Below are positions 850 to 35,607 of a DNA stretch of 48,179 bases, one piece after another (position 1 is the first letter of the stretch; the number at the start of each line of letters is the position of its first letter). The notes below the pieces were generated by a model. The model made no database searches and was not told the DNA's origin. It saw nothing but the letters and a program-made list of their open reading frames with translations. This stretch comes from an uncultured bacterium (GTDB lineage: Bacteria; Bacteroidota; Bacteroidia; Bacteroidales; CAIXTV01): positions 1-48,179 of the forward strand of contig CAIXTV010000082.1 of the NCBI GenBank assembly GCA_903922465.1, given 5' to 3'. Position numbers and translations under genes: made by a program.

Positions 850-873
850 AGACGCAATGCATTGCGTCTCTAC
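846..873. repeat. 28-bp perfect palindrome copy 2 (A/T variant), overlapping the RAYT stop codon
   Basis: gtagagacgcaatgcattgcgtctctac immediately at the RAYT 3' end and 21 bp before the hsdM ATG at 895. Confidence 0.97.
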
Positions 874-894
874 CACCAAATCCAACATAAAAAA

Positions 895-3570
895 ATGTTA
901 GACACATTAACAAAAAAACGAATTGACGATTGCCGCGATATATTGGTAGGTAAATTACCTGACCCAAAAGCACAGATTGAGCAAATTACCATTGGGTTGA
1001 TCTATAAATTCATGGACGACATGGACAAAGAAGCCATTGAATTGGGAGGCAAAGCAAAATTCTTTTCGGGCGATTTTGAGAAATATAGTTGGGATAATTT
1101 ATTCGATTCAAAAGTTACAGCTCATGAAATGCTTGGCTTGTATTCTGAAGCTATTGTAAGCATGGATAAAAACCCTAATATTCCACAGTTGTTTCGGGAT
1201 ATTTTCAAAAATGCCTATTTGCCCTATCGTGACCCTGAAACGCTGAAAATGTTTCTGAAAACCATAAGTGAGTTTGAATATACTCACAGTGAAAAATTAG
1301 GCGATGCTTTTGAATACTTGCTTTCGGTAATGGGTTCGCAGGGCGATGCCGGACAGTTTCGCACCCCACGACATATCATTGATTTTTTAGTAGCGGCAGT
1401 TAATCCAGGTAAAACAGATACCATCCTCGACCCTGCCTGTGGAACGGCAGGTTTTCTAATCTCGGCATTTAAACATATTATCGGTGGTGATGGTAAACCC
1501 GATGCCGATTCCGATGGACGTAGAGACGCGATGCATCGCGTCTCTACCAATACCAATACCCATGACAAAACAACAATAACCCCCGACGAACGCAAACGCA
1601 TTATCGGGAACATTACAGGCTACGATATTTCGCCCGATATGGTGCGATTATCCCTGGTAAACCTTTATTTGCATGGTTTTTCAGACCCACATATTTGGGA
1701 ATACGACACCTTAAGCAGCGAAGACCGATGGAAAGAAAATTATGATGTAATATTGGCAAATCCACCCTTTATGAGTCCTAAAGGTGGTATTCGTCCACAT
1801 AAGAAATTTTCAATTAGCAGCAATCGTAGCGAGGTATTATTTGTCGATTATATTGCCGAACATCTCAATCCCAACGGACGTGCCGGTATTATTGTTCCTG
1901 AAGGTATAATTTTCCAAAGCGGAACAGCGTATAAAGATCTGAGAAAAATGTTGATCGATAATTATCTATATGCCGTGGTGAGTTTACCGGCAGGAGTATT
2001 TAATCCATATAGTGGTGTGAAAACATCCATATTGCTAATGGACAAACAAATTGCCAAAATCACCGACGAAATTCTTTTTGTAAAGGTCGCCAACGACGGT
2101 TTCGGATTAGGTGCCCAACGCAACGCCGTGAAAGGTGGACAATTGGACGATGCAATTAAAATCATACGCAATTTTGTAACAACCATAAAAAACAATGAAT
2201 CACCGACAACCGATATCGTAGAGACGCAATGCATTGCGTCTCTACCAACCACCCAACCGTCCCCACCAACCACCCAACCGACCCCACCAACCACCCAATC
2301 ATTACCACAAACCACCCTGCCCGACATCGCATACAACGTCCCCAAATCCGAAATCGCAAAAAACGGGGATTATAATTTGTCAGATGCAATGGCAACCAAT
2401 GCAATTTCAACCGATGGAATTTCAATCGATGCCCCCCCCGTAGAGACGCGATGCATCGCGTCTCTACAATCGCAATCACAACCATCATCGCCCACAATCC
2501 AATACCCCGATATCGCCCACACCGTCCCCAAATCCGAAATCGCAAAAAACGGGGATTATAATTTGTCTGGGGAAAGGTATAAAATAACGGCACATCATCA
2601 AGAATCAGATTTCCCTTTATTTAAATTATCAGAAATCACAGAAATAAAGAAAGGTACTTCAATTACAAAAGAATCCGTCAGTGTTGGAAGCATTCCAGTT
2701 ATTGCCGGGGGGCAACAACCTGCATATTATCATAATATTCCAAATCGTGAGGGAAAAACAATTACAGTAAGTTCATCTGGTGCTTATGCTGGTTTTATTA
2801 ATTATTTTGAACGACCAATATTTGCTTCTGATTGCACAACTATTCAATCTGATGAATCAATAATTAGTACGAGATTTTTGTTTCAAATTTTAAAATATAA
2901 ACAGAATGAATTTTACAAATTACAAAAAGGCGGTGCTCAACCACACGTATATGGTAAAGATTTTGGTGAAATCCAAATCCCCCTTCCCCCTCTTTCCATC
3001 CAACAAGAAATAGTAGCCGAAATAGAAGGCTATCAAAAAATAATAGATGGGGCAAAAATGGTAGTAGAAAACTACAAACCTAAAATTGATATTGATGAGG
3101 GGTGGGAGATGGTGGAGTTGGGAGATATTATTAAAACACAGACAGGAGGTACTCCTTCAAAATCAAATATTGATTTTTGGATAGGCGATGTCCCATGGGT
3201 ATCACCCAAAGATATGAAAATGGATTTTATCGGTGATTCAGAAGATCATATAAATAAAAATGCGATTGATAATAGTTCCACTAAAATGGTGCCTGAAAAT
3301 ACTGTATTAATTGTTGTAAGATCAGGTATTCTTCAACATTCTTTGCCAGTTGCTTTAACTGTTAAGCCTGTTAGTTTTAATCAAGATATTATCGCAATTA
3401 ATACAAATGAAAAAATTTTAACACCCAAATACCTATTTTATTATTTAAAAAGCACTTCTAAAACTCATATCAAGGAGGGTATAAAACCTGGTGTTACTGT
3501 TCAAAGTTTTCACAACGGTTATTTTAAGAAATTGATTTTTCCTTTACCACCTCTTGAAATCCAAAACTAA
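895..3570 (+). CDS. Fused type I restriction-modification methyltransferase (M) and specificity (S) subunit, with a premature stop in the distal S region
   Basis: M motifs RTPRHIIDFLV, DPACGTAGFL, GYDISPDMVRLSLVNLYLHG, ILANPPF. Two S-type target-recognition halves ending IPLPPLSIQQEIVAEIEGYQ and FPLPPLEIQN*. The TTG start at 862 in the ORF track lies in the palindrome; ATG 895 (MLDTLTKKRIDD) is preferred. Confidence 0.88.
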   Translation: MLDTLTKKRIDDCRDILVGKLPDPKAQIEQITIGLIYKFMDDMDKEAIELGGKAKFFSGDFEKYSWDNLFDSKVTAHEMLGLYSEAIVSMDKNPNIPQLFRDIFKNAYLPYRDPETLKMFLKTISEFEYTHSEKLGDAFEYLLSVMGSQGDAGQFRTPRHIIDFLVAAVNPGKTDTILDPACGTAGFLISAFKHIIGGDGKPDADSDGRRDAMHRVSTNTNTHDKTTITPDERKRIIGNITGYDISPDMVRLSLVNLYLHGFSDPHIWEYDTLSSEDRWKENYDVILANPPFMSPKGGIRPHKKFSISSNRSEVLFVDYIAEHLNPNGRAGIIVPEGIIFQSGTAYKDLRKMLIDNYLYAVVSLPAGVFNPYSGVKTSILLMDKQIAKITDEILFVKVANDGFGLGAQRNAVKGGQLDDAIKIIRNFVTTIKNNESPTTDIVETQCIASLPTTQPSPPTTQPTPPTTQSLPQTTLPDIAYNVPKSEIAKNGDYNLSDAMATNAISTDGISIDAPPVETRCIASLQSQSQPSSPTIQYPDIAHTVPKSEIAKNGDYNLSGERYKITAHHQESDFPLFKLSEITEIKKGTSITKESVSVGSIPVIAGGQQPAYYHNIPNREGKTITVSSSGAYAGFINYFERPIFASDCTTIQSDESIISTRFLFQILKYKQNEFYKLQKGGAQPHVYGKDFGEIQIPLPPLSIQQEIVAEIEGYQKIIDGAKMVVENYKPKIDIDEGWEMVELGDIIKTQTGGTPSKSNIDFWIGDVPWVSPKDMKMDFIGDSEDHINKNAIDNSSTKMVPENTVLIVVRSGILQHSLPVALTVKPVSFNQDIIAINTNEKILTPKYLFYYLKSTSKTHIKEGIKPGVTVQSFHNGYFKKLIFPLPPLEIQN
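1520..1547. repeat. 28-bp perfect palindrome copy 3 (G/C variant) inside the M domain
   Basis: gtagagacgcgatgcatcgcgtctctac; in frame as RRDAMHRVST. Confidence 0.97.
2218..2245. repeat. 28-bp perfect palindrome copy 4 (A/T variant) near the M-S junction
   Basis: gtagagacgcaatgcattgcgtctctac; in frame as VETQCIASLP. Confidence 0.97.
2242..2301 (+). repeat. Approximately 21-bp tandem repeat (ACCAACCACCCAACCGnCCCC), about 3 units
   Basis: accaaccacccaaccgtccccaccaaccacccaaccgaccccaccaaccacccaatc; encodes PTTQPSPPTTQPTPPTTQS. Confidence 0.85.
2321..2380 (+). repeat. Direct duplication copy A of the M C-terminal motif (NVPKSEIAKNGDYNLS)
   Basis: 60 bp, 56/60 identical to 2507-2566. Confidence 0.9.
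2440..2467. repeat. 28-bp perfect palindrome copy 5 (G/C variant), directly after a C8 homopolymer
   Basis: gtagagacgcgatgcatcgcgtctctac; in frame as VETRCIASLQ. Confidence 0.97.
2507..2566 (+). repeat. Direct duplication copy B of the M C-terminal motif (TVPKSEIAKNGDYNLS)
   Basis: 186 bp downstream of copy A; the last 44 bp are identical. Confidence 0.9.
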
Positions 3571-3681
3571 ATCGTCTCACAAATTGAAAAAGAACAGGAA
3601 TTAGTGAATGCCAACAAACAATTGATTGAAATATTTGAGCAGAAAATAAAAGACAGGATTGCTAAAGTTTGGGGGGAATAA
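3571..3681 (+). pseudogene. In-frame continuation of the S domain after the TAA at 3568-3570
   Basis: Same frame: IVSQIEKEQELVNANKQLIEIFEQKIKDRIAKVWGE*, a typical S-subunit C-terminus. Changing TAA to CAA would restore LEIQNQIVSQIEKEQ. Confidence 0.85.
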
Positions 3682-3683
3682 AC

Positions 3684-4532
3684 ATGAGAGCTTTACAGAA
3701 TATAGCTAATAAACATGAAAGAGTTGCTTTTCTGATTGGTAATGGGCCAAATTTGGCTGCCAAGATAATGCCTTCATGGAAAGACCTCTTGGCATCAGTT
3801 GCCGAAAGACCAATCCCCTTTGATGTGAATGGGTTAACTAATACAGAAATTTATGATTTGGTTGAACTTCATTCCGAAAATGTTTATGATGTTAAAAAAG
3901 AGGTAAAATCAAAACTCGAAATAAAATCATATTACAATCTTGATATTCACAAACGTTTAATGGAGTTTGCTTCCGAAAATAATTCTCCTGTTCTGTCTAC
4001 AAACTTTGATGAAGCATTTGAAAAATCAATAAATGCTGAAAAATTTCATATCGAATCAAAAAGTTTCACTCGCTTTTATCCATGGAAAACCTATTATGGT
4101 AAAGAACAATTAACATTACCTACAGATGGTTTTGGTATTTGGAAGATACATGGAGATGTGAATTACAAAGATAGTATCCGCCTTGGGCTTACTGATTATA
4201 TGGGTAGTGCTGAACGCGCTCGAAAGCTAATTCACAATGGTGATGATCGTTTGTTTCAAGGTAAGCGGCAAGAATTTTGGCAAGGTTATCAAACTTGGCT
4301 TCATATTTGGTTTAATCTTCCACTAGTTATTTTAGGATTTCGTTTTGATACCGATGAAGTATTCCTTCGGTGGCTATTAATCGAGCGTAAAAGATATTTG
4401 AACATTTATAAGGCTCCAATGGAAGTATATTACATCTCAAGTAGCATACCTGCTCCGTCTATAAATAACTTAATGAGAAATTTAGGGGTTGAAATAGTTT
4501 CTGTTAATGATTATACAGAAATATACGGATAA
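3684..4532 (+). CDS. SIR2-like domain protein (putative NADase-type defence protein)
   Basis: FLIGNGPN N-terminal loop, VLSTNFDEAFEKSI, KIHGDV, LVILGFRFDTDEVFLRWLL. ATG at 3684, 2 bp after the S-domain stop. Confidence 0.7.
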   Translation: MRALQNIANKHERVAFLIGNGPNLAAKIMPSWKDLLASVAERPIPFDVNGLTNTEIYDLVELHSENVYDVKKEVKSKLEIKSYYNLDIHKRLMEFASENNSPVLSTNFDEAFEKSINAEKFHIESKSFTRFYPWKTYYGKEQLTLPTDGFGIWKIHGDVNYKDSIRLGLTDYMGSAERARKLIHNGDDRLFQGKRQEFWQGYQTWLHIWFNLPLVILGFRFDTDEVFLRWLLIERKRYLNIYKAPMEVYYISSSIPAPSINNLMRNLGVEIVSVNDYTEIYG

Positions 4533-4752
4533 TGGAAACATTCGAACAATATCATAGTTAACAGCAAGCAGAACGAACCAATTTTGAAGCTTGATTACTA
4601 AAATTAAGATTGACAAACTTAAAAAATACGGAGATGCTGAAAACCACACTCAAACTTCGGCATAGGTGGGCAGGAATGAAGCCCAAAATCACTTACTGTA
4701 CATATTCTCAACCATTTAAGGCAAGTTTAAGTAACAACATCACACAATAATT

Positions 4753-5646
4753 ATGGAATACAAAATCGAAATTTATAAAGGCAATAGAGATAATCGTTAT
4801 TTGTTAGGGACGAAAGGTGTAAGACCCTTGATAGTCATGGGTATTAACCCAAGTACTGCCGATGCAGAAAAACCAGACCCTACAATAAGAAAAGTTATGG
4901 GGTTTGCTGAAATCAATGGATTTGACAGCTTCGTAATGATAAATGTTTACCCTCAAAGAGCAACAATCCCAAAAGAATTGCATAAGAAGCCTGATAAAAA
5001 CATAATGCAAGAAAATGCCGAAAGGATAAAAGACATTTTAATAAATGCTGAAAATCCAATAATAGCGGCAGCATGGGGAACAAGCATTGAAATTCGAGAC
5101 TATTTAAAATTATGTCTTTTCTCAATTCACTTAGCAACAGAAAAGTATTTAATTGGGAAAATTGTAAAATGGGTACATATAGGGGAACTTTCCAAAAACG
5201 GACACCCTAAGCATTTATTATATCAACCGTATAACTCAAAATTAAATGAATTTGACATTGAAAAATATATTTCAGCATTAGATAGGAATAGAGAAACAAA
5301 AAACACTGAAAGCGTAACTTTTTTCAAAGAAGATATTAAATTATCAGACATTCCTTCTTCAAGGCATTGGAAAGAAATATTTGACTTCGCTAAAACTATT
5401 GATTTAAGTAAATTTGATTCGAAAACCATAACAGAGCAAACTGTATATCTTGAAAAATATTTAAAAAATCATAATCAAATTGACAGCTCCTCTATTTCGG
5501 AATTAAGAGCAGTTTTGTTGCACTTTATTTTATCGCAAAAATTAAATAGAAACAATTATCCAACATTTGAACAATTGGCTTTTCTAAGTTCTGTTATTCT
5601 TAAAATTCATAATATTATATATGATGAAATGTGGGATGGTAAATAG
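4753..5646 (+). CDS. DUF1643-like protein with an additional ~110-aa C-terminal region
   Basis: LIVMGINPSTADAEKPDPTIRKVMGFAEINGFDSFVMINVYPQRAT ... PIIAAWG-type motif ... GHPKHLLY. Confidence 0.75.
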   Translation: MEYKIEIYKGNRDNRYLLGTKGVRPLIVMGINPSTADAEKPDPTIRKVMGFAEINGFDSFVMINVYPQRATIPKELHKKPDKNIMQENAERIKDILINAENPIIAAAWGTSIEIRDYLKLCLFSIHLATEKYLIGKIVKWVHIGELSKNGHPKHLLYQPYNSKLNEFDIEKYISALDRNRETKNTESVTFFKEDIKLSDIPSSRHWKEIFDFAKTIDLSKFDSKTITEQTVYLEKYLKNHNQIDSSSISELRAVLLHFILSQKLNRNNYPTFEQLAFLSSVILKIHNIIYDEMWDGK

Positions 5647-5654
5647 AATACTTG

Positions 5655-5790
5655 CCAATCAAAGATATTTGCCCAAGCTGTGCGGTAAATGTTTGCTGAG
5701 CAAAATTTGCAAATATTATCCTTAGTCTTAAGCCACAGCATTTTATCATTTAAGTCCGTTGGCTGAAGCACAACGGCAATGAAAAGGTTT
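5655..5790 (+). repeat. Dispersed non-coding repeat (family R1), copy 1
   Basis: cacagcattttatcatttaagtccgttggctgaagcacaacggcaatgaaaa matches the reverse complement of about 47893-47945. Confidence 0.85.
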
Positions 5791-5892
5791 GGGAATGGGA
5801 GGGGTATATCGTACCTACGGCACTTGAAAACCATAAGGGGCATTGGTTTCTACCGATATATCATCCCTACGAGATTTAGGGGATTGGAATGG

Positions 5893-5931
5893 TTCATTTA
5901 GTCCGTTGGCTGAAGTGCAACGGCAATGAAA
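5893..5931 (+). repeat. Dispersed repeat family R1, partial copy
   Basis: atttagtccgttggctgaagtgcaacggcaatgaaaa. Confidence 0.8.
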
Positions 5932-6101
5932 ACCCTTGTGAATCCCTGCCTATCGGCAGGTAAATTTGTGCAAAAACTTTGTGTAGCTTTGTGTTACAGC
6001 TTTATCATTTTTCTAAATGCATTCTAGCTTAAAGGTTTAAAAGTTTATATGTCTAAAAGTCCTACGCAGTTATAGCCCCTTTTTAAGGGGTTGGGGTTAA
6101 T

Positions 6102-6195
6102 GCCCCATCTGAGCGGCAAATGCTTAGGGTGAGTGGTATTTGCAATTCTGCTCTGAATACCTGATAATTTGCTTAATCACCTTAGGTTGAAGCCC
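6102..6195 (+). repeat. Dispersed repeat family R1, partial copy (other half)
   Basis: gagtggtatttgcaattctgctctgaatacctgataatttgcttaatcaccttaggttgaagcc, similar to the reverse complement of about 47950-48015. Confidence 0.7.
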
Positions 6196-6239
6196 AAACT
6201 CAAGCATTATTATAATATGCATTTTAATGAAAAGCAAGG

Positions 6240-7844
6240 TTAAAACCTCTTTCTAAGTTGGAGATATAATTTATGAAACTGATTTGATTTTTCGAAATCA
6301 GATTCGAAGTTTATGGATAGATATAATTTTCGGATAATTTCGGTGGAAATATTTACATCTGCAATATGTTGTATTAGAGGCAATTCGGCATGTAGGATGT
6401 TATAACTCACATAGCTGTATCCCAAACCCAGATTCATTCTTTCGGAAATAAATCCACGCGAAAGTCGTAAACTATATACATTGCCTTTCAGGTAGACGGT
6501 TTCTAAAAGAGTTGCGGATAATGTGGTGGAGATTTGAGATTTAAAAAGATTATTATGCGTAAAAAACATATAAGCATTTCGTGTAGGAGTTTGGTCTTTC
6601 TTTTGAAATCTATATCCACCTTTAATACCGATGTAAATATTTTTTGCAATATTCAGGTTAGCCTGAATACCATAACCTTGTCGAGCTTCTGATTCTATTA
6701 GGGTGTTTAGATAGTTTTTATAGGTTTCGTAATACACTATGTTTTTCCTTGAATCGTAGGTTCCTGAAAGTGTTAATCTTCTAAAAGGACGGTATCTCAG
6801 GGAGAAGTATGTATTTGTCATCGTCACAGTATTCTGTTTATGTTCGTTAACAACTTTATAGAGGTCAAGTTCTAAAGTATAAAACATCTGAATGTTTTTA
6901 ATTAGTGAGCTGCTGTGTTGAAAAGACAAAAATCGTCGGTCAGTTTTTGAATTGTTGGTCTGTTCGAGAATGGCAATAGAGTTTTGCATGTTTCGTTTGG
7001 CGCCTTGCAGGTTTAGACCAATATAAGCACCATATTGCAGGAGATTGAAATTATAGCCATAATCTAAATAATGTGGGCGGGAACCAAGTATGCCTCCAAT
7101 GTAAAGGTTTTTAAATGATTTTTCTACTTGCAGACCATCTATTACCCCGATATTAGCCATGTTTGGATTAATCTTCCTCCCGAGAAAGACATAGGAATTT
7201 TTACTAAACTCATAATTAAAACCTAAATTATAAATTTTCAAGCTATTAAAAATATTTTTTTGTGTATTACTCCATTGCCCGTCTTCTTGCCGGAACAGGA
7301 TATTGCTTTCGAAAGAAAATTTCGAATTTGCGATGCTATTTACATTGAAAGCAAGTGAATAATTAATGACTTGTGATTTATGAGCGGAGGTTTTTGAAAA
7401 GTTTGAAAAACTTGAAATACTTATTCCTCCACTGATATTTTGTTTAAACGGAGTTTTTAGTTTTACTTTTTCAGTTACTTTATTTGTGTCGATTGCATCT
7501 GTAAAACTTTCGTTCTTAGTAGGTTTAGTTTCCTCTGCTTTTTTATTTTCTAATCGTCGTTTGGCAATAATTTTATCGTTAACATTAAATTTAACTGAGC
7601 CAATTGTACTACAAACCACAGAAGATGAGGAAAGGTTTTTTATGATTAATGCAGGGATTAGCTGGCTATTTGAGCTAGTATACAGCGTATCGCCAATTAA
7701 TAAGCCAGCGGTGGATTTATATTTCACATAAGTGTTTTGAGAGCTTAAAAATGAAACTACGCCCTCTGCATTTTCAGATGGAGCCTGAGCATTCAGGCTT
7801 AAACTCCATACACATACAAATCCTAAAATAAATATTATCTTCAT
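6240..7844 (-). CDS. Outer-membrane beta-barrel protein (last gene of the multiheme operon)
   Basis: Signal peptide MKIIFILGFVCVWSLSLNAQ, alternating beta-strand pattern, C-terminal Phe (LYLQLRKRF). Confidence 0.75.
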   Translation of the reverse strand: MKIIFILGFVCVWSLSLNAQAPSENAEGVVSFLSSQNTYVKYKSTAGLLIGDTLYTSSNSQLIPALIIKNLSSSSVVCSTIGSVKFNVNDKIIAKRRLENKKAEETKPTKNESFTDAIDTNKVTEKVKLKTPFKQNISGGISISSFSNFSKTSAHKSQVINYSLAFNVNSIANSKFSFESNILFRQEDGQWSNTQKNIFNSLKIYNLGFNYEFSKNSYVFLGRKINPNMANIGVIDGLQVEKSFKNLYIGGILGSRPHYLDYGYNFNLLQYGAYIGLNLQGAKRNMQNSIAILEQTNNSKTDRRFLSFQHSSSLIKNIQMFYTLELDLYKVVNEHKQNTVTMTNTYFSLRYRPFRRLTLSGTYDSRKNIVYYETYKNYLNTLIESEARQGYGIQANLNIAKNIYIGIKGGYRFQKKDQTPTRNAYMFFTHNNLFKSQISTTLSATLLETVYLKGNVYSLRLSRGFISERMNLGLGYSYVSYNILHAELPLIQHIADVNISTEIIRKLYLSINFESDFEKSNQFHKLYLQLRKRF

Positions 7845-7845
7845 T

Positions 7846-8904
7846 TTATTTTCTAAAATGTTTTCCGCCCCCGGATCCATTAGGATGGCAATTATAGCAT
7901 GCTGTACTTAAATATGAATAGCCACCGACACCATTATGTTGATTGTTCGTTTCTGATTGGCTATGTTCATGACAATCGATGCAGCTAAAAGTGCAATTAG
8001 CAGGATTAGTATGACAAGCGTTGCAGGCAAAACCACTATGATTGCCTGAACTTATAGGGAAATAATTTTGATGGTCGAAGCTTGTAGGAGTCCAGCCAGG
8101 ATTAGTGGTATGACAAACAGTGCAATTTGTAGAAAAACATCCACCTGAATGAACCGGATGGGTAGTTGAATTATAGTCAGTTAAATGACAAGATACACAT
8201 TCTGTGGAAATGTTGGAGAAATTGTTGTTTGGGTGACATTTAGAGCATGCTACATTTGCATGACCTAAAGTTAGAGGGAAAAAATCATGATTAAAACCAG
8301 AACTTGCCCATTCATAAGAGTAAATATAGTGGCATTGAGAGCAGTCTGTCGAAAAATTTGCGGTATTATGATTTGGACTGCTTGTAGCTAAGTACTTGTC
8401 TCTATGACAATCGAAACATTCGATCCCCAGTACATCGTAGCGATGCAAGGTTTCAGATTTGTGGCATTGCTGGCACTCAGTCATGGTGTGAACACCTAAA
8501 AGTGGAAAACGGCTTTGCTGATGTATCCCGGTTACATTGCTGACAATCCATGAGTCAGGTGTATGGCATTTATCGCAATATTTACCAACGGACTGATTGT
8601 GAATGTCAGTATGACAACTTACACATTCGGTCTTTGCTTTGGCTTCCGAAAAAACTAAACTTGAGTGACACAATTTGCAGTTCAAGTCTTTATGAGAGCC
8701 TAATAAAGGCATCTTCGTTTTAGAATGGTCGAAAGCATAAATTTCTTTGTCCAAACTCCAACCCTTGGAGCTATGACAAGTGCTACAACTGATTTTAAAG
8801 TCCTTTCCATGAGGGGATTCGGTTGTTGTGTTTGGTGACTCAGTTGAAAAGAGTCCTATTAAATAGAGCACAAGGGGCCATATTATGAATGACAAGATTC
8901 GCAT
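7846..8904 (-). CDS. 13-heme c-type cytochrome
   Basis: 13 CXXCH motifs counted; N-terminal hydrophobic signal. Confidence 0.9.
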   Translation of the reverse strand: MRILSFIIWPLVLYLIGLFSTESPNTTTESPHGKDFKISCSTCHSSKGWSLDKEIYAFDHSKTKMPLLGSHKDLNCKLCHSSLVFSEAKAKTECVSCHTDIHNQSVGKYCDKCHTPDSWIVSNVTGIHQQSRFPLLGVHTMTECQQCHKSETLHRYDVLGIECFDCHRDKYLATSSPNHNTANFSTDCSQCHYIYSYEWASSGFNHDFFPLTLGHANVACSKCHPNNNFSNISTECVSCHLTDYNSTTHPVHSGGCFSTNCTVCHTTNPGWTPTSFDHQNYFPISSGNHSGFACNACHTNPANCTFSCIDCHEHSQSETNNQHNGVGGYSYLSTACYNCHPNGSGGGKHFRK

Positions 8905-10472
8905 TTTCCTGATATTTTATATTGTATATATTTATTTTGATTTACTTCGGTAGGCTTATGACACTTAATGCAAGCAAGATTTGCATGTTTTCCATCTAAT
9001 TTAAAAGCGGTGTTATTATGGTTAAATTTTAATGGCTTCCAGTTGTCAAATTCATGACATTTGCTGCAATCTGTTGCCCCATCTTTATCGAATTGTTTAT
9101 AATGTTTATCAAGATGACAATGGGTGCAATTTGCTTGTAAACCTGCAAATTTTTGTTGTTTGGAGCCATCAGTGTTTTTCGTGAAATGACATTTGCTGCA
9201 TGCTTGTTTGGTGTGTGCCCCGATAAGTTTAAAATCGGTTTTCGTATGATCGAAACTGATATCAGTCCATGTAGCAGGGTTATGACAGCTAAGGCAGTTG
9301 TCGTCGGGATAATATTTTTTAGAAATAAAATCAGCGTGAATATTTTTGTGACAGTCGATACACTTTTTCCCAATTTCCTTAAAAGTCCACTTTTCGGTTT
9401 TTTTGTGACAATCGAAGCAAGGTGTAGCTAAATGTGCTCCTTCTAAAGCAAAAACGCTTTTATTATGTTGCTCGATAGGGTAGACGAAATTTGAAAAACC
9501 TGATACATTATGACACAGGGAGCAATCGGGAGAAAGCCCGTCTTTTGCAAATTGAGCTTTATGATAATCAGTATGACAATCGGAACATTTTTGAAAGTTT
9601 AGTGGGGTGGTATATTTTTGTTTATGGCATTTTTTACAATCAACAGTCAAATGTTTTCCTTCGAGTGTATACTTTGTTTTCGTATGGTCGAAACTGTTCA
9701 ACCCTTTAATTGTAGTAAATGATTCGTTTGTATGACATTGTGCGCAATTTTGACCAAACTGATTTTTATGGACATCCTGATGACAGTTGGTGCAACTGCC
9801 ATATTGTAGTCCCGTAAATTTTTGAAATTTAACTCCATTTTGGGTTTCAATTTTATGGCATTTTATGCACTCAACATTTAGATGTTTGCCCGATAATTTA
9901 TATTTAGCGCTTGCATGATTAAATTTTGAGGCAGGCTTAAAGGCATTTCCATCGTGGCAATTAATACAATTAGTAGATAATGTCTTTTGATGATAATCGG
10001 TATGGCAGTTTACGCAATTAATATTTAGTCCCAAATAGGTGAATTTCTTGGCATTAATTTTTGGATTGGTAATATGCTTGGCATTATGGCAATCCTTACA
10101 AGTTTTCTTAGCATGTGCACCGGTAAGATTAAAACCTGTTAAATAATGCTTGAAATTCTTTTCATCGAATTTTACAATTTGAAAATTTAATCCGTGATGA
10201 TCGCTGTGGCAAGTTGCACATTCTTTTCCTTTTACATCTATTGAAGCATGGTAGCCTTTATTCAGAAGTATGCGTTCTTTTAATTCTGTATGGCAATCGA
10301 GGCATTTGTTATTGGACAATTGCTCTCCTAAAACATGACATTTGGTGCAATTGGAAATTCCTTCCAAATGACTATGGACTTTTGATAATTCGCCCGGGGA
10401 AATTTGTGCTATGGACTTTAGGGCAATAAACACAATTAAAAAAATGGAATAGAGTATTCTGCTAAAATTCAT
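8883..10472 (-). CDS. 20-heme c-type cytochrome
   Basis: 20 CXXCH motifs counted, with repeats of FDHTKTxFxLxGxHxxxxCxxCHK; N-terminal signal peptide. Confidence 0.92.
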   Translation of the reverse strand: MNFSRILYSIFLIVFIALKSIAQISPGELSKVHSHLEGISNCTKCHVLGEQLSNNKCLDCHTELKERILLNKGYHASIDVKGKECATCHSDHHGLNFQIVKFDEKNFKHYLTGFNLTGAHAKKTCKDCHNAKHITNPKINAKKFTYLGLNINCVNCHTDYHQKTLSTNCINCHDGNAFKPASKFNHASAKYKLSGKHLNVECIKCHKIETQNGVKFQKFTGLQYGSCTNCHQDVHKNQFGQNCAQCHTNESFTTIKGLNSFDHTKTKYTLEGKHLTVDCKKCHKQKYTTPLNFQKCSDCHTDYHKAQFAKDGLSPDCSLCHNVSGFSNFVYPIEQHNKSVFALEGAHLATPCFDCHKKTEKWTFKEIGKKCIDCHKNIHADFISKKYYPDDNCLSCHNPATWTDISFDHTKTDFKLIGAHTKQACSKCHFTKNTDGSKQQKFAGLQANCTHCHLDKHYKQFDKDGATDCSKCHEFDNWKPLKFNHNNTAFKLDGKHANLACIKCHKPTEVNQNKYIQYKISGKCESCHS

Positions 10473-10492
10473 AGAATTCGATTTTTGTAAAA

Positions 10493-11824
10493 TTAATGTT
10501 TTAAAATTGCTTCACCAAATTTCTCGCTGATTTGTATGCCTATTTTTTGCAGAAATTGTGAGGGAAGTTCGCCTCCCGCAAAAATGTATACCAAATCATT
10601 TTTAATTGTCTGTGTTTCGTTTACCTTAATATTAATCATGTTAACTGTTTCTTTTTCAATTGAAACAGGCTGGGTGTTAAACTTTACATCAATATTGTTA
10701 TTGATTATCGCTTCGCGAATTTTGCTGTTATTTAAAGGTTTTATTCGGCTAAACGACTCGCCCCGATAAGAAAGAATGACTCTGTTTTGATCAGAAAGTA
10801 ATAGGGCTGATTCGATGGCTGAATCACCTCCTCCTACAACCAAAATATCCTTGTCTTTAATTAGTTCAGGCTCTAAAAGACGATAAGCTACTTTCTCAAG
10901 ATTTTCGCCGGGAATATTTAATTTTCTGGGTGTACCCCTTCTGCCAATTGATAATAATACTTTTTTTGCTGTGTATTCTTCTCCCGATAGGGTAACAATT
11001 TTAAATATGTTATTTTCAGGAATAATGGTTTCAACTTTCGAATTTTCCTTTAGAAGGATATTGTTTTTACTGATAACGGTTTTCCATAAATCAAGCAACT
11101 CTGTTTTGCTGGTTTCGAATAGCTTTACTTTGCCATAAAGTGGTAAATCCATGGGCGAAGTCATCACTATTTTAGCTCTTGGAAAGGTGAAAACGGTTCC
11201 ACCCAAGGTGTCCTGTTCGAGGATTATCGCATTTATTTTTAGCAATTTAGCTGTTAAAGCAGCGGATATTCCGGCGGGGCCGGCACCAACTATCACCAAA
11301 TCGTAAGTTGCTGAATGATTTTTATCGAGGGTTTTCACAATGTTTTCAACGGCTTGCTTTCCCTGTTCAACAGAGTTTTTTACTAAGCCCATACCGCCCA
11401 ATTCACCGGCAATATATACTCCCTGAACATTGGTTTCAAAGTTTTGATTGACATGAGGCAATTCGATGCCACGCATTTCTGTTCCAATATGCAAGGATAT
11501 AGCTTCGGTAGGACATGCATGAAAACAAGCACCATGACCGATGCAGTGTGAAGCATTTATGGTGGTTGCTTTACCATTTCTAATGCCCAAAATATCCTTT
11601 TCAGGACAAGCCGAAATGCATGCGCCAGTTTTTATGCACCTGCTTTCATCTACCACGGGATGAAGTGAAATTGGCTCATAGAGTCCTTCTTCTTTGGCTT
11701 TAATAATTTTCGCTTCGACGATATTTGATTTTTTCTTTTGTCGCCACAAATAAAATATAATCGCAATCAAACAAAGCAGAATGACTGACGCATAAATAAT
11801 AATATTTTCTATGAGTACTTCCAT
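10493..11824 (-). CDS. Membrane-anchored ferredoxin-like / FAD-NAD(P) oxidoreductase fusion
   Basis: N-terminal TM; CIKTGACISACPEKDILG and CIGHGACFHACPTEAI; FAD GAGPAGISAA; NAD(P) VVGGGDSAIESALLL; ATG at 11824. Confidence 0.88.
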   Translation of the reverse strand: MEVLIENIIIYASVILLCLIAIIFYLWRQKKKSNIVEAKIIKAKEEGLYEPISLHPVVDESRCIKTGACISACPEKDILGIRNGKATTINASHCIGHGACFHACPTEAISLHIGTEMRGIELPHVNQNFETNVQGVYIAGELGGMGLVKNSVEQGKQAVENIVKTLDKNHSATYDLVIVGAGPAGISAALTAKLLKINAIILEQDTLGGTVFTFPRAKIVMTSPMDLPLYGKVKLFETSKTELLDLWKTVISKNNILLKENSKVETIIPENNIFKIVTLSGEEYTAKKVLLSIGRRGTPRKLNIPGENLEKVAYRLLEPELIKDKDILVVGGGDSAIESALLLSDQNRVILSYRGESFSRIKPLNNSKIREAIINNNIDVKFNTQPVSIEKETVNMINIKVNETQTIKNDLVYIFAGGELPSQFLQKIGIQISEKFGEAILKH

Positions 11825-11828
11825 AATT

Positions 11829-12698
11829 TTAAAATATCCATCTTGATCCAAACATGATGGTAATTGTTACATGAATTATCATAACTATCAACATAATAAA
11901 TGCAAAGGGCAGGTGGGCTACATGCCAGTATTTCAATAAATTTTGCATGGTTGTGAGCCTGTCGATTTTTCTGTTTAAAGAGATTTCGTTTTTTAATAGC
12001 TTGATAATGTTTACATATTCACTTTTAGTGAGATTACTTTTCTTAATGATTGATTTTGCATTTTTTAAGGATTTTCTATCCTCAAAATAGGTTTTGGTAT
12101 AACTTATCAAAAAATTTCGACGATATAAGCCCACTTTTCTTTTTGTAAGGTTAATAATCTCGTCATAAGATTCTTTATCAAGATTCAGCTTGCTATTTAG
12201 GGTTCCTTCAACATCAGTTTTCATGCTACTCACTTCGCTTAAACTTAATTCGCGTCCTTCTATCGATCTTGGAATTTGGATATAGATATATCTACCCACA
12301 ATGCCACTTAAAAAGACGGCAACCATGCTCCAGAAACTTATTGCAACAATGCCCCCAAACTTAAAAGAAGTATGGTAGAGCACTAAAATCGGACCTAAGG
12401 TGCATAAAAAGATATGAAATTCGAGCCAGTGTTTTAATATTCCCAATCGTGAAAAGGCTTTAAGTCGTTTCCTAAACATATACAGTAATACGCCAATAAG
12501 AATTAAAGCTGAACCGAAGATTCCATAAGCGTGACCAAACGAACCACTTGGTTTTAGCATTTTATAATCAGGATGGAAAAAACGCTCTTCGATACTCGTT
12601 TTGTAAAATGTATTCCCTCTGTATATTAGTAGTACAAATACGGTGATAACAATAAGTATCAGTGAAAAAAGGAAGATTCTGTGTGCTGTTTTTGACAT
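11829..12698 (-). CDS. Polytopic membrane protein, predicted b-type cytochrome-like
   Basis: Multiple TMs with histidines spaced within helices: HWLEFHIFLCTLGPILVLYHTSF and WHVAHLPFAFIMLIVMIIHVTI. Confidence 0.7.
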   Translation of the reverse strand: MSKTAHRIFLFSLILIVITVFVLLIYRGNTFYKTSIEERFFHPDYKMLKPSGSFGHAYGIFGSALILIGVLLYMFRKRLKAFSRLGILKHWLEFHIFLCTLGPILVLYHTSFKFGGIVAISFWSMVAVFLSGIVGRYIYIQIPRSIEGRELSLSEVSSMKTDVEGTLNSKLNLDKESYDEIINLTKRKVGLYRRNFLISYTKTYFEDRKSLKNAKSIIKKSNLTKSEYVNIIKLLKNEISLNRKIDRLTTMQNLLKYWHVAHLPFAFIMLIVMIIHVTITIMFGSRWIF

Positions 12699-17000: not shown

Positions 17001-20000
17001 ATGAAAGAAAAATTAATCAGACTTTTGATGTGTATGGCATTAATGATGGGTATGTTTATATCTGACAATGCATATTCACAAACAGGAGGAACGTTGTCAT
17101 TAAATGTGACAACAACATTTACTGGAGGAGCCTTTGGAGCCCGATCTGACTTTGTTGTTTGGATTGAAAATTCATCTACGACATTTGTAAAAACCAGAGC
17201 CATTTACGGAAATGACAGGGATCATTTAGTGCAATGGATTTCAAAAACGGCAACACAAAATGTTGTCGACGCAACTGTTGGAGCAACAACCACTACAAAT
17301 CCAAAGTCCTATACTGCAATTTTGTGGAATGGAAGTGATTTGACAGGAACAACTCCTTATAATTTGTTGCCTGATGGAACCTATAAAATAGGAATGGAAT
17401 GTGCATGGGGAAGCAATAATACTATTGTCACTTCAAGACAAATATATTACGCTACCTTCACTAAAGGGCCAACTCCTCAGACTATTACGCCAAATGATAC
17501 TGTTAATTTTACAGGGATTACATTACAGTGGACTCCTTCGAACCTTGTTGTTACGACTTCAGCTTTAGCTTCAAATACCTATTTTTTAGGTTCGTTAGTT
17601 AGTGTTCCTTTTACCCTTGGGACAGGAACAGTTTATAGAAATAATGTTTGGACTGCTCAATTATCTGACGAAACTGGGAGCTTCGCAAGCCCAGTAACTA
17701 TTGGAACCCTTACTAGTACTACTGCTGGTACTATATCAGCTACTATACCTGCAATTGCAACGTTAGGTGCTGGTTATAGAATTAGAGTTGTTGGAAGCCA
17801 ACCTTCAGCTATAGGAAGTGATAATGGAAGCAATATCACCCTAGCAGTTCCAGTTAGCGCACCAAGTCTCACAGCTGCTGTTGGAGCAACTGTTGATAAT
17901 CCAGTGAATATTACGTTTACCGATGATGCCGCATGGAGAACAGCTATCACAGCAGTTAAAATAGGTAGTACTTCTCTTGTTCCAACAACGGACTATGTTA
18001 TAAGTGCAGGAAATTTACAGCTTAAACCTGTCGGACTTAATGTGCTTCTTACTACGTTTGGCAGCAAAAATATTACGGTTGTAGCCACAGGCTATGCTGA
18101 TGCTACGGTAACACAATCAATAGATGTAGGTGTAGCCGCTAAGTTAGGAATGAAAACTCAACCCGCAGCCCCTGCTGTTAATGGAGGTGCTTTAGCAGTT
18201 CAGCCTGCAGTTTATATTCAGGATCAATATGGCAATACAACAACAAGTACGGCTGTTGTAAACGCAATTGTTGGCTCAGGTGTTTGGGTGTTAGGTGGAA
18301 CAAGTGCTGTTTCAGCTATTGCAGGAACAACAACTTTCAGTGGCTTAACTGCAACTGCAACTGCCAATATCATGGGAACTATTACTTTTACCTCTGTTGG
18401 TTTGACTTCGGTTACTTCCACTTCTTTTAATATTCCTTTCGTAGGTCAAAGTTGGGGGAATACAGCTGGGTCTTTATCTTTTACAATTAATCCTGTTTCA
18501 CGCAGCACAAGTAATTATACATTAAATCATGTCGCTGCATCGTGGATAGAAAATACATCTGGTACTTTTGTTAAAACCAGGAATAGATATACTGGAACAA
18601 GTAATCAGAGCCATTTAACTTCTTGGAGAGCAACAACAGGGTCGACATATAGTGTTGTTGATGCAACAACTGCAGCTACTTTAAACGCATATAACCCTAT
18701 AACAATTACTTCCTGGTTAGGAAATGATTTAACTGGAGCAACACCTTATAATTTACTACCTGATGGTGAATACAAGGTTTGGTTTGAAATGTCATGGGAT
18801 GATGCAACTACAGAAGCGGATAGGATTTCGGTGCAATTTACCAAAGGACCAACCCTTTTTACAGCATCTCCTGCAAATACAACAAATTTCACAGGCATGA
18901 CTGTTATCTGGACACCAGCAGCAGCCAATACAATTACAACGTCAGCTTTGGCAGGAAGTACTTATGCTGCTGGAGCAACAGTTAGTGTTCCTTTTACTAT
19001 TGGGGTTGGTACTGTGTATAACAACAATGTATGGACTGCTCAATTATCTGATGCTACGGGCAACTTTGCAAGTCCTATAAATATAGGAACACTCAATACT
19101 ACAACAGCAGGAAGCATTTCTGCAACCATTCCGATGGGTGCTCCTGCCGGAAGTGGATACAGAATAAGAGTTATCGGAAGTCAACCTCAAGCTGCAGGAA
19201 CAGACAACGGAACTAACTTTACAATAACTAATGGAGTTTCTCCTTCTATTGCGGCAGCAACAGCAGCAACTGTTGACAATGCATTTGAAATTACTTATAC
19301 AGACGATGCTATATGGAGAGCTGCTATAACAGGAGTTACTGTTGGTGGAACTACATTAACTGCAGGATGGGTTGTTTCAGCAGGGAAGATTACGTTTTCT
19401 CCATCTGCCTCAGTTCCGGCAAACTTATTGCAAGCTTCAGGTTCAAAAATAATCACTATTGTAGCTGCTGGATATGGAGATGCTTCCGTTATTCAGATGT
19501 TAGGACCTGGTATTGCGACAAAATTAGGAATGAAAACTCAGGCAGCTGCGCCAGCAACTAATGGTGCTTTATTTGCTATTCAACCAGAAGTATATGTTCA
19601 GGATCAATTTGGAAATACTGTAATAAGCTCTGCTATCGTTTCTGCAGCAGTTGGAACCGGCTCATGGATTTTGGGTGGAACAACTGTTGATACAGCTTCA
19701 TTGGGGATAGCTTCTTTTGTAGACTTAACAGGATCAACATCAACTTTTGGAGGCTCAACCATTACCTTTTCTTCCCCAGGATTAACTTCAGTATCTTGCA
19801 ATACATTCTATATTCCTTATCCTTTAAGTGGAAATCTTACTGTGGGTACATCAGGTAATTTTACATCATTCACAAAAGCCGATGGATTATTTTCTGTTAT
19901 CAACTCTTCGGGAATGTCTGGTAATACTTCGATTTCAGTAACAAGTGATATTGCCATCGAAGATGGGGTTACTGCGCTAAATCAGTGGGTAGAATACGGC

Positions 20001-23000
20001 GGAAGTGGTTATACACTCACAATTCAACCAAGTGGTGGTGTTTCAAGAACTATTTCCGGAACTGCTGCTGCTCCACTTCTTAATTTCAATGGTGCAGATA
20101 GAGTAACAATTAATGGTTTAAACACAGGAGGAAATGCTTTAGTTATTTCAAATTTAAGCACAGCTACAACTGCTGGGACTTCAACAATTCAGTTTATTAA
20201 TGATGCAACCAATAATACAATAACAAATTGTTCTATTCTTGGTTCTTCAACTGCTGCACTAACTACTAATGGAGGGAATATATTATTCAATACTGGAACT
20301 ATAACTGGGAATGATAGTATCACGATTTCTAATTGTAAAATAGGCCCTGCAGGAACAAATTTGCCTTCCAAGGGGATCTATGCTAATGGGAGTACAGCCT
20401 CAGTAGCAATAGCTAATAGTACTGTTCTCATTAATAACTGTGAGATTTATGATTTCTTTTTAACAAGTGGATGTGCTGGTATTTATGCTTTAACTGGGAA
20501 TACAGATTGGAGTATTACAAATAATAAAGTTTATCAAACTGCAACTAGAACTTTCACCGCCGCAGGAACTATGAGTGGAATCTATTTTGTAAACTCGACC
20601 TATGGAAATAATATTCAAATTACTGGTAATACAGTTGGATATGCTTCTAATTCTGCTACAGGAACATTGACTTTGACTGGTAGTGCAATTGCTGGTGTCT
20701 TTCAGGGGATTTATATGCAAGCAATGAATGCCGCTGCTAATACATGCAATGTTAACTTTAATGTGGTCTCTGATATTTCATTTACGTCTGCATCTGGTGC
20801 ATTTACCGGTATTTATAATAATACGGGAGCAACTTCAAATACGATAAATATTAATAGTAATCAGATAAAAAACATCGCTACCATCACAACTACTGGCACT
20901 GTTCAAGGAATATATGCTGGCTCTGCCACCAATCTTAATTGTAGTTCAAATACTATTGATGGAATTAGTCGTAATATCTCTGGTAACTTTTATCCAGTAA
21001 GATATAATGCACCAACAAATATTATATTTGATGGTAATACCATTAAAAATATAGCGTTTAACAATACAGGAACGACAACCACATTTTATGCTGTTTATTC
21101 AAGTGGTTCAGGAGTGAATGAAACTTTCACTAATAATAATATTTATAATATCTCATCAACGGCAACAGGCGCTCAAAGTATCTATGGTTGGTATTCCACA
21201 TCTGCAACAGGAATAAGAACTGTTCAGAATAACAAGATATATAATATTACTGCTGCAGTAGGAAGTGCTGTGATTTATGGAATGAGAATCAATACAGGAT
21301 CGACTAATGAAATTAGTGGGAATAAAATATACACCCTCAGTGGTGGTATTACTATTAATGGAATTAACATTAGTGGTGGAACTACAAATAATGTATTTAA
21401 AAACAAAATATATGATTTGTTTACAACTAATACAAGTCCTGTTGTAAGTGGATTGTTGCTTTCAGGAGGAACAACCAATAATGTTTCGAATAACCTTATT
21501 GGTGATTTAAGAGCCACAGCTGCAAATACCGTCACTCCTTTGGCCGGTATTAATATCAGTGGGGGGACAACAAACAATATTTATTATAACACCGTTAATT
21601 TAAATGCTATTAGTACAGGTGCTGCTTTTGGTAGTTCTGCTATTTATGCCTCTATTACTCCAACTGTAAACTTACGGAACAATATTTTGGTTAATACCTC
21701 AACCTCTAATGGCGCCACTGGTTATACTTGTGCTTATCGCCGTAGTGCAGGTGCTGCTGGAAATCTTTCTACTTATGCCAGTACATCTAACAATAACCTG
21801 TTCTATGCAGGTACTCCTGGAGCAAATAATTTAATCTATTATGACGGAACAAGTTCAGCTCAAACTATTGCTGCTTATAAAGCAGGAGTATTTACTGCTG
21901 GTACTATTGCTCCAAGAGACGCTAATTCTATCTCAGAGAACCCAGTTTGGGTAAGCACCATCGATTCAGTGACTACCTATTTGCATATTAATACTTCAAC
22001 TTCAACTCAAATTGAAGGTGGTGCGTCTACTATTGCAACATATACTACCGACTTTGATGGTGATACACGTAATGTAAGTACTCCTGACATTGGGGCAGAT
22101 GAGTTTGCAGGTACTCCTTTAGATTTATCTCCTCCTGTTATATCATATACAATTCTTGGGAATCAATTAGCAAATGCTACAGTTGCATTAACTTCTACTA
22201 TAATTGATGCTACAGGTGTATCAACATCGGGTGCAGGATTGCCAAGATTATATTATAAAGTTAATTCAGGGACATATAGTTCAGTTGTTGGTGTTTCGAT
22301 TGGTTCAAATCAATATACTTTTACTTTCTCTCCATCAACTGTTGTTGCAGATGTGGTTTCTTACTATATAGTAGCTCAAGATTCCAGTGCAGCAAAGAAC
22401 ATAACAGCAAGCCCTTCAATAGGAGCAAGTGGTTATACAACTGACCCTCCTGCATGTTCAACTCCTCCAACAACACCAAATACTTTTATTGTTGCAAATG
22501 CTTTTACCGGAACCTATAATGTTGGTTCTGCTGAAACCTATACTTCTTTAACTAATGCAGGTGGTGTTTTTGCTGCTTTAAATGCTGGTGTTCTTACGGG
22601 AAATATTGCCCTTAATATAACATCTGACCTAACTGAAGATGGAACCAATGCATTAAACCAATGGTCTGAAGCTAATGGAAGTGGTTATACGATGACTATT
22701 CAGCCAATTGGTGGTGTTACTAGAACAATATCAGGTACGGTTGCTGGAAAGCCAATGATTAACTTTAATGGTGCTGATAGAGTAACTATTAATGGAATAG
22801 ACACTGGTAGCAATGCTTTAGTGATTTCCAACTTAAGTACTTCGGCTACTGCAGGAACTTCAACAATACAATTTACAGCAGATGCCTCTAATAATACTAT
22901 AACTGAATGCACAATATTAGGTTCTTCAACTGTTCCACTTGCAACTAATGGTGGAACAATTAATATTAGCACTGGAGTTACAACAGGAAATGATAACCTT

Positions 23001-35200: not shown

Positions 35201-35607
35201 ATCATCCCTTGCAAGCCCATCCTCCTACCATCATCAGGCGAGTATATCCTAGTTATTCCGTAGTTATGCAATTCCTCTATCTCCTCCGGAAGAATAACTC
35301 CTCCGCCCCCCCCAAATATCTTAATGTCGTTAAAACCCTTTTCTTTCAACTGATCATACATATACTTGAAAAACTCAATATGACCTCCCTGATAAGAAGT
35401 GATAGCAATTGCCTGCGCATCTTCCTGCACTGCACAATCAACAATCTCTTGCACCGAACGGTTATGCCCAAGGTGAATAACCTCAGCTCCGGTCGATTGA
35501 ATAATGCGACGCATCACATTGATAGAAGCATCGTGCCCGTCAAATAGAGAAGCAGCGGTTACAATTCGTAGATGATTTATTGGTTTATATACTGAAATGT
35601 CCTGCAT
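32227..35607 (-). CDS. icmF: Fused isobutyryl-CoA mutase / G-protein chaperone (B12-dependent acyl-CoA mutase)
   Basis: N-terminal B12-binding domain ([11 protein letters not shown]), MeaB-like GTPase ([17 protein letters not shown]), C-terminal methylmalonyl-CoA mutase-type domain ([20 protein letters not shown]) in one ORF. Confidence 0.92.

Follow-up and report, generated by a model that had tools for sequence, protein, structure and literature searches.

A PCC3-like five-gene cassette of Bacteroidota and Ignavibacteriota with a putative NAD(P)H input module

As described, a PCC3 cluster encodes an inner-membrane protein of about 300 amino acids, a porin and two cytochromes, the first of which is periplasmic and has 21, 24 or 27 hemes (PMC10734462). 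The second cytochrome has 10 to 35 hemes in Gallionellaceae (PMC10734462) and up to 85 hemes elsewhere. The inner-membrane protein has five transmembrane (TM) segments with two WX3HX13H motifs on TM3 and TM5 and SGXXG on TM4, and two b hemes were proposed for the PCC3 and PCC4 proteins with this kind of motif set (He et al. 2017, PMC5566968). PCC3 has so far been described in Proteobacteria, its electron input is unproven and its direction is unknown. We analyzed a contig of 48,179 nucleotides (hereafter the window; contig C82 of a 97%-complete, 5.02-Mb Bacteroidota genome in 312 contigs), in which five open reading frames (ORFs) on the minus strand at 6240-12698 form a cassette. We consider it probable that this cassette encodes a continuous electron conduit of PCC3 type from the cytoplasm to the exterior. 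Since ORF2 is a fixed fifth gene beyond the published cluster, the cassette is best classed, as judged from its sequence, as a variant resembling PCC3 that has an NAD(P)H input module in addition, and not as a plain PCC3 member. It was set beside PCC3 by description, that is, by published motifs, heme counts and gene layout. The five genes are:

11829..12698, minus strand: ORF1, inner-membrane protein, 289 amino acids; five predicted TM helices, predicted diheme cytochrome b.
10493..11824, minus strand: ORF2, membrane-anchored NAD(P)/FAD oxidoreductase with two ferredoxin-type iron-sulfur (Fe-S) motifs, 443 amino acids.
8883..10472, minus strand: ORF3, cytochrome with 20 CXXCH motifs, 529 amino acids; signal peptide, predicted periplasmic wire.
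7846..8904, minus strand: ORF4, cytochrome with 13 CXXCH motifs, 352 amino acids; signal peptide, no lipobox, 10-heme head and one triheme repeat.
6240..7844, minus strand: ORF5, outer-membrane barrel, 534 amino acids; signal peptide, C-terminal Phe.

All five ORFs lie where the first-pass annotation of the window had placed them, with two starts in need of revision. ORF2 most likely begins at the ATG at 11824 (443 amino acids), the start used by the majority of its relatives, which leaves a gap of 4 nucleotides to ORF1; the alternative TTG at 11851 would give 452 amino acids. ORF5 most likely begins at the ATG at 7844 (534 amino acids), 1 nucleotide past the ORF4 stop and at a start common to its relatives. 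A scan of the cassette for promoters and terminators yielded nothing usable.

ORF1 carries W91-x3-H95-x13-H109 and W258-x3-H262-x13-H276, which are two WX3HX13H motifs, and SGIVG at 131-135. The four motif His residues are invariant in 40 aligned relatives. The full set of both WX3HX13H motifs and SGXXG is present in 68 of 73 full-length relatives, the remaining five being without one Trp only. An AlphaFold2 model (mean predicted local distance difference test [pLDDT] score 76, predicted template modeling score [pTM] 0.56) has five long TM helices at 3-33, 53-78, 88-109, 116-140 and 258-286, with the WX3HX13H motifs on TM3 and TM5 and SGXXG on TM4. In length, motif set and motif placement, ORF1 agrees with what has been published for the inner-membrane protein of PCC3, and it is predicted to be a diheme cytochrome b. 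It has no Pfam family, the sole hit being DUF4405 at an E-value of 0.025, and sequence-profile searches of PDB with ORF1 and ORF5 returned no matches. The first-pass annotation had recognized no named system here and had called the locus analogous to porin-cytochrome (MtrCAB/Pcc) systems with different components. The analogy stands as far as the layout of a trans-envelope conduit with an NAD(P)H-linked input is concerned. The remainder was set aside, since ORF1 has the PCC3 signature and a 20/23-heme cytochrome paired with a variable heme-rich one and a porin is the PCC3 layout.

Relatives of ORF2 with 62-79% identity were found at 80 loci (151 candidates) in Bacteroidales, Prolixibacteraceae, Saprospiraceae, Flavobacteriaceae, Leadbetterellaceae and Ignavibacteriales. 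Cultured hosts among them include Draconibacterium aestuarii, Aequorivita antarctica, Lacihabitans and Labilibaculum. Nearly all of these loci that are sufficiently long have the order ORF1-ORF2-ORF3-ORF4-ORF5. The five genes of Emticicia oligotrophica DSM 17448 are located on plasmid pEMTOL02 and adjoin a cytochrome c assembly gene. In order not to select by ORF2, 396 genomes drawn evenly from the phylum were searched with an ORF1 profile. ORF1 was present, as a single copy each, in 42 of them (about one in ten) and in 34 of 172 genera. All five genes occurred together in 34 of the 42 genomes, including locus L137, whose 605-amino-acid ORF at the barrel position escaped the barrel profile; six loci were cut by contig ends and two had ORF1 only. 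Conserved synteny, which the first-pass annotation had proposed as a check, is thus strong, and since the gene set is kept in scores of other genomes, chance is excluded. The genes occur in two orders, order A as in the window and order B, ORF1-ORF3-ORF4-ORF5-ORF2, and a single fully supported branch separates the two in an ORF2 tree of 116 rows made by a quick method. No gene family recurs among the neighbors flanking the cassette and the flanks gave no functional hint. No relative of ORF2 was found on viral contigs.

ORF2 consists of one N-terminal TM segment, a Lys/Arg-rich stretch, a ferredoxin-like domain with two cluster motifs and a FAD/NAD(P) domain of the Pyr_redox_3/YpdA-like kind, in agreement with the earlier reading of a membrane-anchored oxidoreductase. 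Since the Lys/Arg-rich stretch comes after the TM segment, ORF2 is probably cytoplasmic. Its score with the NCBIfam equivalog for YpdA was 159.8 bits, below the cut-off of 339.9. Because none of 117 relatives has a CXXC in its flavoprotein part, ORF2 is not a disulfide reductase akin to thioredoxin reductase. In the second Fe-S motif, His replaces the second Cys ligand in 117 of 117 relatives. The second ligand position of the first motif is occupied by Ser, Thr or rarely Gly or Ala, and by Cys in 14 relatives from the phylum sample. It is plausible from these patterns that ORF2 holds one His-ligated cluster and one three-Cys cluster. Published descriptions of PCC3 are without such a protein, and ORF2 is a new part.

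The function of ORF2 as an input module is further supported by plasmid-encoded proteins that resemble ORF1 in a profile-profile comparison (probability 99.7%, E-value 2.9e-26) with the heme-ligand His residues in register. They adjoin NAD(P)H-type flavoproteins in 9 of 9 operons examined. Eight operons encode an FNR-type FAD/NAD and 2Fe-2S protein, the ORF1-like protein and a 7-heme cytochrome; the ninth, from Sphingobium, encodes the ORF1-like protein with a YpdA-like FAD/cyclic-nucleotide/4Fe-4S protein and a 10-heme cytochrome. By analogy, these operons independently support a route from NAD(P)H through b hemes to c hemes that would bypass quinones, and together with the ORF2 domains they bear out the NAD(P)H-linked module that had been proposed for the window. 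An alternative that we consider unlikely is a quinone-linked PCC3, in which ORF1 would exchange electrons with menaquinol and ORF2 would be an accessory NAD(P)H:quinone or regulatory protein. He et al. put the PCC3 inner-membrane proteins on the quinone pool, and the proteobacterial cluster is described as four genes without a flavoprotein. However, ORF2 is fixed in both gene orders of the cassette, and the nine plasmid ORF1-like proteins neighbor NAD(P)H-type flavoproteins of two other architectures.

As an observation on the plasmids themselves, the three-gene operons (loci L093-L095, L097, L098 and L141-L143) recur in Proteobacteria and Spirosoma, many of them in copper or heavy-metal regions. 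Some adjoin NiFe-hydrogenase genes (Alteromonas, Glaciecola and Bradyrhizobium).

The counts of 20 and 13 CXXCH motifs given for the two cytochromes by the first-pass annotation were exact. Shuffling their residues gave a mean of 0.26 CXXCH for ORF3 and 0.16 for ORF4, with a maximum of 3 in 2000 shuffles. Their densities of 26.5 (ORF3) and 27.1 (ORF4) residues per heme compare with the 26 to 27 shared with PCC3, and cytochrome c assembly genes are present in the genome, which counts for a conduit. ORF3 has 20 hemes in 52 loci, 23 in 17 loci and 17 once in a truncated copy, with about 20 in the independent phylum sample. Its 20 or 23 hemes are off by one from the 21, 24 or 27 of the PCC3 periplasmic cytochrome, and ORF3 is placed in the periplasm by its signal peptide only. 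The N-terminal part is weakly DmsE/MtrA-like (TIGR03508, 43.4 bits against a cut-off of 192.2).

ORF4 varies from 10 to 70 hemes across relatives and from 13 to 70 in the set found through ORF2, to be compared with the 10 to 85 hemes of the second PCC3 cytochrome. Among complete ORF4s of the latter set, 47 of 57 heme counts equal 1 modulo 3, although these sequences are related and not independent. In long ORF4s, heme-to-heme segments three apart are 36-58% identical as opposed to about 22-28% at non-multiples of three, and the triheme repeat is about 75 amino acids long. The first nine heme spacings are near-constant (about 36, 16, 16, 34, 19, 25, 32, 16 and 25), and 62 of 70 tails are built solely of a triheme unit spaced about 35-15-25. 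By these spacings, ORF4 is a fixed 10-heme head followed by variable triheme repeats. The fixed length of ORF3 and the free length of ORF4 suggest an inner wire that would span the periplasm and be constrained in length by it, and an outer wire that is free to grow.

ORF5 ends in Phe, as had been noted, and adjoins the cytochrome pair in complete loci. An AlphaFold2 model built with 41 sequences (pLDDT 82.5, pTM 0.63) has an N-terminal beta domain (25-95) and a barrel of 22 strands (136-533). A barrel of 22 strands has the size of TonB-dependent receptors. The model is therefore as wide as large-bore outer-membrane barrels, and a narrow pore, the concern raised by the first-pass annotation, is no ground for refusing a conduit. 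Foldseek matched ORF5 to generic barrels only, foremost ushers and porins, with no TM-score above 0.43 by query length and with MtrB absent from the top 50 PDB matches. ORF5 had no Pfam family at E-values up to 10 and no NCBIfam match at E-values up to 0.01. We also considered whether the cytochromes remain periplasmic as a charge store or electron hub while the barrel serves as an unrelated export or uptake pore. Neither ORF3 nor ORF4 has a lipobox or an obvious surface-export signal, and it has been suggested that heme-rich cytochromes may act as capacitors (PMC11495043). Yet the barrel lies directly beside the cytochrome pair, and ORF4 is free in length while ORF3 is not, which would follow if the periplasm constrained ORF3 alone. 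We regard a purely periplasmic role as improbable.

The gene set, its domains and motifs, its co-conservation and the repeat structure are established. For the conduit that we favor, we infer that the hemes are occupied, that the proteins form a complex, that NAD(P)H is the donor, that electrons flow outward to an extracellular acceptor and that ORF4 is located outside the cell. In this model ORF2 would oxidize NAD(P)H, and possibly also a ferredoxin, by means of FAD and a pair of Fe-S clusters positioned on the cytoplasmic side of the inner membrane. ORF1 would then take the electrons across this membrane on two b hemes, with H95 and H262 near the cytoplasm and H109 and H276 near the periplasm according to the positive-inside rule. 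ORF3, with its 20 hemes and a length that hardly varies, would span the periplasm. The constant 10-heme head of ORF4 may enter or sit on the ORF5 barrel with its variable triheme repeats reaching outward, where the end acceptor could be Fe(III), Mn(IV), humics, electrodes or partner cells. Two considerations favor outward flow: the low potential of NAD(P)H as a donor, and a membrane potential that drives electrons out. Since electrons would leave the negative cytoplasm and skip the quinone pool, the route should dissipate rather than conserve energy. Such a route suits a redox-balance valve, and it would most likely be a sink for excess reducing equivalents.

Multiheme wires can conduct in both directions. 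The chain might also run in reverse and reduce NAD(P)+ or ferredoxin with electrons taken from Fe(II), a cathode or a partner cell, and Fe(II) oxidation was the role originally proposed for PCC3 (He et al. 2017, PMC5566968). On thermodynamic grounds, however, electrons moving from circumneutral Fe(II) to NAD(P)+ would have to climb several hundred mV and oppose the membrane potential, and no coupling subunit is visible; we think electron uptake has little chance of being correct. Least probable is extracellular reduction for iron acquisition or metal detoxification instead of respiration or redox balance, for although many of the nearest ORF1-like plasmid operons sit among copper and heavy-metal genes, no metal or siderophore family recurs beside the Bacteroidota cassette beyond a cation-efflux domain in 3 of 109 neighbors.

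Several observations weigh against an outward conduit of PCC3 type. The Fe-S motifs of ORF2 are non-canonical, and ORF3 and ORF4 have signal peptides without the lipobox or, for ORF4, the export signal mentioned above. A PDB fold search with the ORF1 model gave no significant match and no solved cytochrome b fold. Loci L028 and L062 are without the later cassette genes, and ORF1 stands alone in L151 (12807-13679) and in L171 (13396-14136), where the copy has an internal stop codon. On Fe(II), Sideroxydans ES-1 downregulates both of its PCC3 clusters (PMC8788666), so that PCC3 itself has no demonstrated function. We found no experiment on any cassette member in the open-licence literature. Finally, ORF1 is present in only 4 of 9 genomes of the genus Labilibaculum. 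Labilibaculum manganireducens reduces Fe(III) and Mn(IV) by a mechanism that is unknown; a link of the cassette to this metal reduction was considered and, in view of that distribution, is not claimed.

More tentatively, Bacteroidota and Ignavibacteriota may share a widespread route that does without quinones and discharges NAD(P)H directly outside the cell through a fixed-length inner and a length-adjustable outer heme wire, with an Fe-S relay that has an invariant His ligand on its second cluster. Its users would include cultured species in which extracellular electron transfer is not known. The fixed NAD(P)H-type input of this Bacteroidota version of PCC3 points to an outward flow of electrons and to a quinone-free sink that dissipates energy. 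The question becomes testable in cultured carriers such as Emticicia oligotrophica, Draconibacterium aestuarii, Aequorivita antarctica and Lacihabitans. Where Bacteroidota reduce metals or electrodes, the cassette is a candidate mechanism. It also gives a context for the heme-rich Bacteroidota cytochromes, mostly of Saprospiraceae, that were reported from activated sludge with no mechanism given (PMC11495043).

Elsewhere in the genome there was no second copy of ORF2 or ORF3. Contig C42 (L175) encodes 6-, 8- and 4-heme proteins adjoining a cytochrome c assembly gene (3305-9437) and a 16-heme protein (17575-19971); these were rejected as a second cassette because they belong to other systems. 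The window itself contains a perfect 22-bp palindrome (GAGACGCAATGCATTGCGTCTC or a two-base variant) in five copies at 563-584, 849-870, 1523-1544, 2221-2242 and 2443-2464. They fall within two ORFs or at their ends, one ORF being transposase-like (136-849) and the other encoding a type I methylase (HsdM-like; 862-3570). Some copies are translated as part of the protein, and the rest of the 5-Mb genome lacks the pattern. At 17001-30146 lies a secreted-looking protein of 4381 amino acids that contains numerous similar repeats and ends in a sorting-like domain, as judged by eye from the translation. The 1126-amino-acid protein at 32227-35607 resembles, by sequence, an acyl-CoA mutase fused to its G-protein chaperone (IcmF type).

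A description of the five-gene cassette was not found in the open-licence literature. An anode-enriched Bacteroidetes genome (Bacteroidetes_1) has a different, seven-gene cluster, and identity with it was rejected since that cluster comprises six multiheme cytochromes and a porin (PMC8258643). Ignavibacteria are known for OmbB- and MtrB-type clusters (PMC7399161).

MtrCAB, MtoAB and PioAB share with the cassette the principle of a multiheme cytochrome and a barrel across the outer membrane, and the N-terminus of ORF3 is weakly like the DmsE decaheme. In contrast to those systems, ORF5 is not of MtrB/PioB type, ORF3 has 20 hemes and falls below the TIGR03508 cut-off, and there is no MtrC-like lipoprotein. 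MtrCAB receives its electrons from quinol via CymA, whereas the cassette has the putative NAD(P)H module. NADPH oxidases and ferric reductases likewise have two HX13H heme-ligand pairs on two helices and NAD(P)H flavin input, but ORF1 has no Pfam ferric reductase match, the flavoprotein of the cassette is a separate chain of another fold, and the electrons would pass to c hemes. The GSU1996-type triheme c7 polymers of Geobacter consist of tandem triheme repeats. ORF4 resembles them in its repeats and long heme arrays and differs in its distinct 10-heme head and its place in a porin cluster.

The ORF1-like plasmid operons (Alteromonas, Sphingobium, Bradyrhizobium, Methylophaga and Spirosoma) combine an NAD(P)H flavoprotein, a homologous inner-membrane protein and a multiheme cytochrome as the cassette does, but with another flavoprotein type and a small cytochrome, and without a porin or a second cytochrome. 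Searching plasmids with ORF1, ORF3 and a 46-heme ORF4 brought up no PCC3. PCC3 and the cassette share the inner-membrane signature, the heme density, the variable second cytochrome and the adjacent porin gene, here with a predicted barrel of 22 strands. The differences are that the published cluster has four genes and occurs in Sideroxydans, Leptothrix and other Proteobacteria, whereas the cassette has ORF2 as its fifth gene and resides in Bacteroidota and Ignavibacteriota.

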